Part shown: positions 18,338-21,248 of the stretch, piece after piece
Layout of the letters: every line of letters begins with the position of its first letter
How positions within the stretch are numbered: position 1 is the stretch's first letter
Virus record (IMG/VR): IMGVR_UViG_3300037245_002249
Location: 1-23,035 of that record
DNA: 23,035 nt
Strand: one strand, 5' to 3'
DNA from: a virus
Notes under the pieces: generated by a model
Told to the model about the DNA's origin: nothing
Databases searched by the model: none
The model's input: only the letters and a program-made list of their open reading frames with translations
Program-made: the position numbers and the translations under genes

Positions 18338-19126
18338 TTATTCATCAAGGAAACAACCACACCCGCCGAAGTCGAAAAGATCTATCTGCTTGGTACATTT
18401 AGGCATTAAATACTTCTTCCTGAAATCAATCATAGACAAATAGTTTAAAGTCCCATCAATAGTGACCCTGATAAAAGGGCATTCTTTCCCGATATGCTGA
18501 TATACTTCCTGCTCTTTTTTCTCAAGCTCGTGGTATCTTTCAGGCATCTTATCATATAGCATTTTAAATTGAGCCTGTCCCGTCTTTATACAGAACCCAC
18601 CACAGTTATTATGAGGGAACCCCAGTTTATACAGGGCCGGGACTTCTATCCCATCGTCAGCAAGAATAGATAACATCTCTGGTTTGCTCAGTAAGGGACG
18701 TGCCATCATAGGGGCCTCATACTTCCAGCCTCCTTTATCCATCTTTCTTTTAGCCATCCTGTGGTGTCTATGCTCTTCTGTCCAATCTATGCCGGTATAA
18801 CAGACGCAATTCTCAGGAGTGAAGTTATCTTTCATCCATTTGTCAGCCAGTTCCCTTTTTAATATCCTGCTACATGGATCTATTCTTGAATTACCCATTA
18901 ATCTAACATCTTTGAATACTAGCCATATATCCCTCCCATCTTCTAGCCTGACAAAATGACCGCCTATTTTTGCAGCCCCTTCTTTTATGAATCGGTACAG
19001 GTCTTTATCTTCTGATTTCGTATCAGTAAATAACAAGTACAGGTTGCCTGTGCCGTGTTCTTCTGCAACTCTCTTTGCTGCACAATATGATCCAACACCA
19101 CCTGAAAACATAACTATATGATTCAT
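18338..19126 (-). CDS. PAPS-reductase-like PP-loop protein
   Basis: A 262-residue protein of the adenine nucleotide alpha-hydrolase superfamily. The PP-loop is SGGVGS at residues 8-13, after a hydrophobic strand. LLFTDTKSEDKDLYRFI at 31-47 matches the second strand and helix of the PAPS_reduct domain, CSRILKREL at 85-93 and GIDWTEEHRHHR at 112-123 fit the nucleotide-binding region. The C-terminal half has NNCGGFC at 173-179 and a GGCGCFLDE end, so Cys residues that could hold a metal or Fe-S cluster. Family members activate substrates by adenylation and include sulfate assimilation enzymes and thiolation enzymes such as DndC. Standalone phage versions have no known substrate. No DndB, D or E partners are seen. 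Confidence 0.82.
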   Translation of the reverse strand: MNHIVMFSGGVGSYCAAKRVAEEHGTGNLYLLFTDTKSEDKDLYRFIKEGAAKIGGHFVRLEDGRDIWLVFKDVRLMGNSRIDPCSRILKRELADKWMKDNFTPENCVCYTGIDWTEEHRHHRMAKRKMDKGGWKYEAPMMARPLLSKPEMLSILADDGIEVPALYKLGFPHNNCGGFCIKTGQAQFKMLYDKMPERYHELEKKEQEVYQHIGKECPFIRVTIDGTLNYLSMIDFRKKYLMPKCTKQIDLFDFGGCGCFLDE

Positions 19127-19185
19127 TTATGAATCTCCTTATAACTTGCCTTAAAAATTAAAGGGACTTCCCCCTACCCGCCGAT

Positions 19186-19443
19186 TTATTCATCATTCAA
19201 GGCTTTATTATATTCCTTCATAATAAAGGCCTCGACTATTTGGTATGGTTTGCAGTCGTACAGTTCAGCTGTGTTTTTTATCCAGTAGATAACATCAAGA
19301 GGAAGAGGCAAAGAAAAGAACCAGCTGCCTGATTTTAAAAGTTTTTCCTCATTATTCAGTTTCTCTTTGCTCTTCTTCTTAAGCTCTATAGACTCATAAA
19401 CTTTCTGGATTCTATACGCTGATGATCTTGTCTTATTACTCAC
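19186..19443 (-). CDS. Small basic helical protein (85 aa)
   Basis: Starts at GTG (19443) behind AGGAG at eight bases (AAGGAGACAATATA). The N-terminal half is very basic (MSNKTRSSAYRIQKVYESIE, then KKKSKEKLNNEEK). The second half has SLPLPLDVIYWIKNTAELYD and CKPYQIVEAFIMKEY, a helix pair that could resemble a ribbon-helix-helix or small DNA-binding fold. It precedes the PP-loop gene with a 59-base gap. Function unknown. Confidence 0.6.
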   Translation of the reverse strand: MSNKTRSSAYRIQKVYESIELKKKSKEKLNNEEKLLKSGSWFFSLPLPLDVIYWIKNTAELYDCKPYQIVEAFIMKEYNKALNDE

Positions 19444-19567
19444 TATATTGTCTCCTTAATGCTTGATTCCTGCTGGTGGTTAAGGCGCAATCATCCCAAA
19501 GGAGTATTGCACCATAAGATATGATTCCTACCGGAGCCATAAGGCGGTTTGTCTCATTTTCTGGCAT
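19436..19567 (-). CDS. Possible 43-aa protein in the large gap
   Basis: An open frame starts ATG at 19567 behind GGGAG with only three bases between, and ends with a TAA overlapping the start of the next gene. The product starts MPENETNRLMAPVGIISYGA and ends LRRQYSE. Upstream in the same frame an open stretch containing GKYNQRGDGLKCYRGAG is broken by one TGA, so this may instead be the tail of a decayed gene. The same bases also form a hairpin (19484-19513). Low confidence. Confidence 0.35.
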   Translation of the reverse strand: MPENETNRLMAPVGIISYGAILLWDDCALTTSRNQALRRQYSE

Positions 19568-19668
19568 GGTCTCCCAAACAATCAACCATTTGCTATTTCA
19601 TCCAGCCCCACGGTAGCACTTCAATCCATCGCCCCGCTGGTTATATTTCCCCACGGCAGACAGACGGC
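19568..19668. other. Rest of the gap with no clear gene
   Basis: No start with a good ribosome binding site gives a reasonable protein here. On the minus strand CCAGC and GCTGG enclose a 29-base region (19605-19643), CCGTGGGG occurs twice, and ATGGT/ACCAT pair across 19565-19588. These could be extra stems of the structured RNA candidate or remnants of a decayed gene. Confidence 0.35.
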
Positions 19669-19827
19669 TCAGAGTAACGACCAGGGCATAAAAAAAGACC
19701 TTAACCAGTTCCTCAAGGAACGACCCTTAACACATTTTGCATAACTAAAATGTATGAAGGGACTGGTTAAAGTCTCTAAATATTCTTCTGTTATGCCGTC
19801 ATATTTGCTCAGGGTCGTTACATCTGA
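19669..19827 (-). ncRNA. Structured RNA candidate with nested long-range stems
   Basis: Complementary blocks are nested in order: GTAACGACC (19674-19682) with GGTCGTTAC (19813-19821), extended by TCAGA with TCTGA across one bulged base; GGCATAA (19685-19691) with TTATGCC (19791-19797); a 13-pair stem 19697-19709 with 19762-19774; inside it a hairpin CCCTT...AAGGG with ACATTTT/AAAATGT (19724-19761) and a small hairpin TTCC/GGAA. The only imperfect pair of the 13-pair stem is C-A on plus but G-U on minus, so a minus-strand RNA is favoured. T7 follows the 13-pair stem on minus, so the core could also terminate transcription. No known class recognised. Confidence 0.6.
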
Positions 19828-19878
19828 ACACTTAAATAGTACACCCTGTAGGGTTATTTATCAAGGGCTTAAACTTAC

Positions 19879-20124
19879 TTACCCCCAATTCGCCCGTAAT
19901 GATTCAGCTTCCGATGTGTTTAATCTGTGTGCTTTACCAGCTCCAGGCATTGAACTAGACATATCTAAACTGACTCGCTTGTCACAATCTCTAGAGCAAA
20001 CATATCCACCATAAAAATTGACCTTTGCCTTGTCTCCTGATTCTGGAATGTATGCACTCCCACCAAGATAATAAGCTGTTCCATTCAAAGGCCTCCCACA
20101 CCCTCTACATTCTGCACCTTTCAT
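19879..20124 (-). CDS. Treble-clef zinc-finger protein (81 aa)
   Basis: Contains CRGCGRPLNGTAYYLGGSAY at residues 6-25 and GGYVCSRDCDKR at 39-50, giving Cys6, Cys9, Cys43 and Cys47. Spacing and the strand between the pairs are typical of a treble-clef zinc finger, close in style to small phage and FCS-like zinc fingers. The C-terminus is helical (NTSEAESLRANWG). The ATG directly follows the YopX-like gene's stop (TAGATG), with GGGGG as ribosome binding site. The long structured gap follows. An overlapping plus-strand frame was judged spurious. Confidence 0.72.
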   Translation of the reverse strand: MKGAECRGCGRPLNGTAYYLGGSAYIPESGDKAKVNFYGGYVCSRDCDKRVSLDMSSSMPGAGKAHRLNTSEAESLRANWG

Positions 20125-20974: not shown

Positions 20975-21004
20975 AATTAGCTCCTTAGTATTTAACTTGA
21001 TTTC

Positions 21005-21033
21005 AATATAATCCGGATACGTTTATTATGCAA
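21005..21033 (-). promoter_or_regulatory. Promoter of the leftward accessory operon
   Basis: On the minus strand TTGCAT (21033-21028), 17-base spacer, TATATT (21010-21005, five of six matches). The -35 is weak (three of six). The predicted start is about 25 bases before the GTG at 20974. Confidence 0.5.
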
Positions 21034-21099
21034 GCTTTATTTAACTTATTTACATAACTTTATTATTTATTTTAATATCGCCTATTCCGTTTACATTGC
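21034..21099. other. AT-rich divergent control region
   Basis: About 66 bases between the two divergent promoters, made mostly of A and T with TTATTTA-like repeats. No gene. It could act as UP elements, hold regulator sites, or be an unwinding element of an origin; nothing here decides. Confidence 0.4.
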
Positions 21100-21128
21100 T
21101 TGACATGATAAACTATCTACATTAGTAT
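21100..21128 (+). promoter_or_regulatory. Promoter of the rightward recombination operon
   Basis: TTGACA (21100-21105, perfect), 17-base spacer, TAGTAT (21123-21128, four of six). An overlapping TATGAT lies three bases further. The predicted start near 21135 is just before the structured leader. Confidence 0.7.
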
Positions 21129-21137
21129 GATATATGC

Positions 21138-21248
21138 CACAGGGCAAAAAGAAACCCAGCCGGGAAGCTGGGCGTGATCAGTGGTTAGCTGATCGGGTTG
21201 TTATTAGACAACAGTTTAACCCCTGTGAGTATGAAAGTAAAGAGGGTT
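21138..21248 (+). promoter_or_regulatory. Structured 5' leader of the ERF gene (riboswitch-like)
   Basis: CACAGGG (21138-21144) pairs with CCCTGTG (21221-21227), closing a branched fold. Inside are CCCAGC/GCTGGG (21155-21172), GATCAG/CTGATC with a 7-base loop (21176-21194) and GTTGT/ACAAC (21197-21212). AACCC at 21218-21222 can pair with GGGTT at 21195-21199 or with GGGTT at 21244-21248, which is the ribosome binding site. Both copies lie in an identical GGGTTGTT. The pairings exclude each other and the closing stem. It is not a tRNA: no T-arm or anticodon loop fits. Confidence 0.6.

Follow-up and report, generated by a model that had tools for sequence, protein, structure and literature searches.

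The window analysed here, 23,035 nucleotides covering positions 1–23,035 of the IMG/VR virus record IMGVR_UViG_3300037245_002249, comes from an uncultivated phage and probably represents a fragment of its genome. The left part is read leftward from the minus strand in the order tape measure, major head, head morphogenesis, portal and terminase, then a run of small genes, and the ERF and YqaJ recombination genes are read rightward from position 21247. The divergent region between these two gene blocks carries a good terminator-like hairpin on the minus strand (GCCCAGC..GCTGGGT, 21154–21173) with a T-rich tail. The terminase shares 66–71% identity with those of five IMG/VR contigs (L002–L006) and about 44% identity with those of Lactococcus and Enterococcus phages and Clostridia prophages. 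The element that is the subject of interest lies on the minus strand between two small genes, downstream of a group extending from 20974 to 19879. The last gene of this group (19879–20124, minus strand) encodes an 81-residue cysteine-containing protein whose sole homolog, at 40% identity, is from Pseudomonas phage UFJF_PfDIW6; since the terminase is nevertheless of the Bacillota-phage type, the genome appears mosaic or its host uncertain.

The earlier note had placed the element in 435 free bases among genes otherwise packed without gaps. The figure is overstated, because a 43-codon open reading frame at 19436–19567 occupies part of this region and the free stretch is nearer 19568–19878. The description of the packing holds roughly, with further gaps close by, for example at 19127–19185 and 20975–21246. 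The 43-codon frame (minus strand) begins with ATG at 19567, 3 nt after a GGGAG site, and its stop codon overlaps the GTG of the following gene (GTGA). Its coding signal is weak, at 0.035 nats per codon, a search for homologs of its product found none, and it may not be a gene. The gene that follows (19186–19443, minus strand) starts with GTG at 19443, preceded by an AAGGAGA site, and encodes a basic 85-residue protein of no known family. A single-sequence structural model of this protein consists of a long helix and two short C-terminal helices (pLDDT 79.6, pTM 0.38), and the protein is possibly a DNA- or RNA-binding regulator. A weak hairpin with a T-rich tail is found at 19176–19159 on the minus strand. 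A search with the read-through peptide of the downstream segment gave nothing. Two further features of the neighbourhood are recorded here. Positions 18338–19126 (minus strand) encode a PAPS-reductase-like protein (phrog_424), about 43–45% identical to its best phage homologs, whose match to PADLOC SspD (5e-14) relates it to DNA phosphorothioation enzymes. Between the element and the 43-codon frame, at 19572–19665 on the minus strand, there is a sub-threshold match to the Rfam family RF02932, Betaproteobacteria-1 sRNA (25.3 bits against a cut-off of 49.4, with E 0.36 over the whole window and 0.007 over the gap alone); the folding of this stretch is no better than that of shuffled sequences (z 0.4).

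The element itself spans 163 nt, from 19829 to 19667 on the minus strand, and in its minimum-energy structure, fold A, it forms 59 pairs at −63.2 kcal/mol, with z of about −7 for the inner 159–161 nt. The four complementary blocks claimed previously are all present in strict nested order (5 + 9, 7 and 13–14 pairs), and the fold is two pairs longer than had been proposed, closing at 19829 and 19667. The outer stem, P1, is formed by 16 pairs between a 5′ arm at 19813–19829, GTTCAGATGTAACGACC, and a 3′ arm at 19667–19682, GGTCGTTACTCTGAGC; within it lie the block pairs TCAGA/TCTGA and GTAACGACC/GGTCGTTAC. In the second stem, P2, GGCATAA (19791–19797) pairs with TTATGCC (19685–19691), which overlaps the end of a run of T residues. 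The stem of 13–14 pairs closes a three-way junction from which two inner hairpins branch.

For positions 19669–19827, the minus strand folds at −59.6 kcal/mol, against −32.3 ± 3.9 kcal/mol for shuffled sequences (z −7.0, none of 200 shuffles as good). For 19669–19829, the energy was matched by none of 1000 shuffles. When the window and five relatives were scanned, 19669–19827 proved to be the strongest fold of the window after GC correction; the two segments ranking above it are one plain hairpin common to relatives L002 and L003. We conclude that the fold is real and non-random. An assembly artefact is unlikely because the arms are imperfect and interrupted. A coding origin was considered and rejected: frame 0 is open for 62 codons across the element, but there is no start codon near the 5′ end, the coding score is negative and relatives are lacking.

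On the plus strand, the folding energy of 19669–19827 is −54.5 kcal/mol (z −7.1, none of 200 shuffles as good), compared with the −59.6 kcal/mol of the minus strand. The one mismatch reported in the long stem is, as had been claimed, U·G on the minus strand and C–A on the plus strand, and further minus-strand G–U pairs occur at 19754/19731, 19776/19695 and 19828/19668. Four helical pairs are thus G–U on minus and C–A on plus, and the opposite case, G–U on the plus strand only, does not occur. This asymmetry points consistently, if weakly, to a minus-strand RNA.

The flanks of the 5′ end and the inner stem bear on the same question. A sigma70-like promoter, TTGATA-17-TACTAT, is found on the minus strand at 19864–19836, matching the consensus at only 9/12 positions. 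No other such site occurs on the minus strand between 19000 and 21200, and its predicted start, 19829, is exactly the first paired base of P1; given the density of these sites in the window, 18 in 23 kb, chance would place a predicted start at most 3 nt from the 5′ end in about 0.5% of cases. The inner part of the element, a long stem with the three-way junction (P3–P5, 19694–19777, minus strand), is a terminator-like domain, positions 19691–19776 (86 nt) folding at −35.6 kcal/mol with z −6.9 and none of 1000 shuffles as good. P3 ends at 19697, and the T7 tract follows directly at 19696–19690, as the earlier note had observed; this is the only minus-strand run of at least seven T in the window. 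Compared with a usual intrinsic terminator, P3 is long and its GC content only moderate. The suggestion that the element is an elaborate terminator is partly right, the inner domain with T7 being a terminator by sequence. Taken together, the folding energy, the strand asymmetry, the T7 at the inner stem and the promoter-like site at its 5′ end give good support to a structured RNA from the minus strand, and the element is probably such an RNA.

Folding of growing prefixes from 19829 reveals a second structure, fold B, which like the promoter-like site had been missed in the earlier note. Both 5′ arms pair, again in nested order, with inner copies of their partners: AACGACCC of the P1 arm (19812–19819) with GGGTCGTT (19719–19726, minus strand), and GCATAAC of the P2 arm (19790–19796) with GTTATGC (19739–19745, minus strand). 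The pairing probability of both is about 1.0 in prefixes ending from 19719 to 19701; fold B is the minimum-energy fold in every prefix tested over this range, and its core has a z of −5.3. Plain prefix energy is uninformative as a test, its null also forming A hairpins, and the null used here consisted of 1500 shuffles in which every A pair was kept but permuted, with or without pair flipping, and A pairs were penalised. At a prefix of 111 nt, fold B was reached by none of the 1500 A-preserving shuffles, or 7 with flipping, and at 129 nt by 3, or 10 with flipping; because fold B had been seen before its test was chosen, this result is only suggestive. At full length, by contrast, the best fold other than A is unremarkable, 126 of 1500 shuffles reaching it (147 with flips). 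The computed energies of the B and P3 folds cross at 19699 (−36.0 versus −35.3 kcal/mol), P3 being ahead by 3 kcal/mol at 19697. As modelled, the balance just before T7 is that expected of a switch. In equilibrium folding restricted to nested pairs, the terminator wins once T7 has been made.

Relatives of the element were sought widely. Querying phages and plasmids with the 435-base gap by blastn returned short chance matches only, and searches of IMG/VR with the neighbouring proteins found none. Among 160 loci related by their terminase (IMG/VR and GTDB), blastn and a covariance model derived from the element's single sequence recovered nothing but the window itself and one chance blastn match in a coding region. 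Stem patterns and exact blocks in viral and genome contigs gave matches that fold differently or fall in genes. Some 1,200 genomes, about 800 searched with the model and 398 by DNA, yielded short matches at close to the chance rate, the best of them (E 1e-4, 41 nt) in one genome of the 398 and not sharing the fold. The element is absent from the portions available for the five contigs closest by terminase, two of which (L005 and L006) barely reach the region; the structures that these five contigs do contain are simple terminator-like hairpins or lie inside genes. Such absence is consistent with an accessory element. No family in Rfam 15, including riboswitches, 6S, GOLLD, ROOL and introns, scored above its gathering cut-off, and the best score on the element was 17 bits, at chance level. 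The element is an orphan, without a relative in the collections searched. With no homolog found, its folds are computed from one sequence and its function is read from sequence anatomy alone.

Given the arrangement of the promoter-like site, T7 and the downstream genes, both preceded by ribosome-binding sites, the element occupies a leader-like position. We tentatively favour the view, plausible though somewhat short of probable, that it is a 163-nt minus-strand leader RNA, transcribed from its own promoter, which acts as a conditional, attenuator-like intrinsic terminator for the 43- and 85-residue genes downstream. Transcription would start at about 19829, and during synthesis the 5′ arms would pair with the inner copies in fold B, holding the left strand of the terminator stem in a loop. 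When the polymerase reaches the T7 tract, the P3–P5 hairpin would become the better fold and termination would ensue; were fold B to persist, read-through into the downstream genes would result. In the read-through RNA, both 5′ arms could then change partners to the copies lying past the T tract, giving fold A and sealing the 5′ end in a stem. The outcome would be set by an effector, which may be a phage or host protein, an RNA or the rate of transcription. The analysis shows the folds with their computed energies, the T7 tract and where the promoter-like site and genes lie; from these we infer a working promoter and terminator, the competition of B with P3 in the cell, and such an effector. 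Counting against this reading are the imperfect promoter match, the length and moderate GC content of P3, the equilibrium advantage of the terminator once T7 exists, the unremarkable non-A fold at full length and the doubtful standing of the 43-codon frame.

The main rival, possible but on the doubtful side, is an independent small RNA, some 140 nt long, running from 19829 to the T7 tract and acting in trans. The promoter-like start and the T7 end do mark out a neat unit, and the fold of the terminated RNA combines the P3–P5 domain with a 5′ hairpin (GTTCAG/CTGAGC), whose loop AACGACC is a possible pairing seed. However, the partners of P1 and P2 that lie beyond T7 would be superfluous to such an RNA, for which no relatives were found. 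We regard as unlikely an unregulated elaborate terminator, or an RNA-stability or processing element, that closes the upstream genes (20974 to 19879) and undergoes no switching. Operon ends commonly carry strong hairpins, and here the inner stem with its T7 lies directly downstream of the 81-residue gene; nevertheless, such an element has no need of the P1 and P2 arms or of duplicated inner copies, and a promoter-like site stands between the upstream gene and the fold.

Less likely still is an element acting as DNA, either what is left of a small mobile element whose ends are inverted, or a structure used in replication, cruciform or single-stranded. The inverted arms and inner repeats fold as DNA too (z −6.2), and absence from the available parts of the closest relatives would fit, but no target-site duplication was seen at the ends, the record holds no second copy, no copies were found in the phage, plasmid, viral-contig or genome searches, and all the wobbles are G–U on one strand, as in RNA. 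The idea of a DNA origin raised in the earlier note finds no support, since there are no iterons and the recombination genes are located elsewhere. A retron-type or other reverse-transcribed RNA, or its decoy, is highly improbable, the likeness to retron RNAs being one of superficial anatomy (paired ends, a long inner hairpin and a T-rich 3′ side), with no reverse transcriptase (RVT_1) match in the record by a search whose control was positive in three known genomes, and no Rfam match above cut-off.

In its possible mode of action, the proposed leader may resemble known attenuators. The trp leader is an attenuator with mutually exclusive antiterminator and terminator structures. The same is true of the Bacillus subtilis rplJL leader (PMC4538822). 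The element has in common with these leaders a promoter-like site upstream, a putative leader, a stem with a T tract and small genes downstream. Fold B provides the earlier fold that excludes the terminator stem, as computed and as chosen after inspection, and P3 with T7 provides the terminator stem and U tract. Its terminator domain, built around a three-way junction, is far larger than theirs, and its 5′ arms possess a second set of partners past the T tract; no sequence relation to them was found, and it has no known ligand. The put RNA of phage HK022, of about 70 nt, forms two stem–loops and binds RNA polymerase (PMC9378689). Both are phage-encoded cis RNAs near a promoter that affect termination, in our case by proposal, but at 163 nt, with a nested structure, a three-way junction and its own T tract, the element departs from put in size and from its two stem–loops. 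GOLLD and ROOL are both in Rfam, and are far larger than 163 nt. These two are large, ornate, phage-associated RNAs (PMC12286853), which the element resembles as a structured RNA of unknown role in a phage genome, and from which its far smaller size and lack of an Rfam match set it apart. With intrinsic terminators it shares a stem directly followed by T7 and a single direction, but its 86-nt branched domain lies within two more nested stems and has an alternative fold.

It is conceivable, if improbable, that the element represents a new class of phage leader RNA, an antiterminator/terminator switch in which the 3′ partner sites are duplicated, on either side of the T tract. By pairing first with one set and later with the other, a single pair of 5′ arms would permit read-through and afterwards seal the 5′ end of the resulting transcript. 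Regulatory RNAs are rarely annotated in uncultivated phages, since there are no homologs for alignment. If the switch works, it would provide compact control of small phage genes, with a clear prediction, drawn from the two sets of arm partners, that mutation and rescue can test; if it does not, the phage is still left with one strong orphan RNA, marked by this element.
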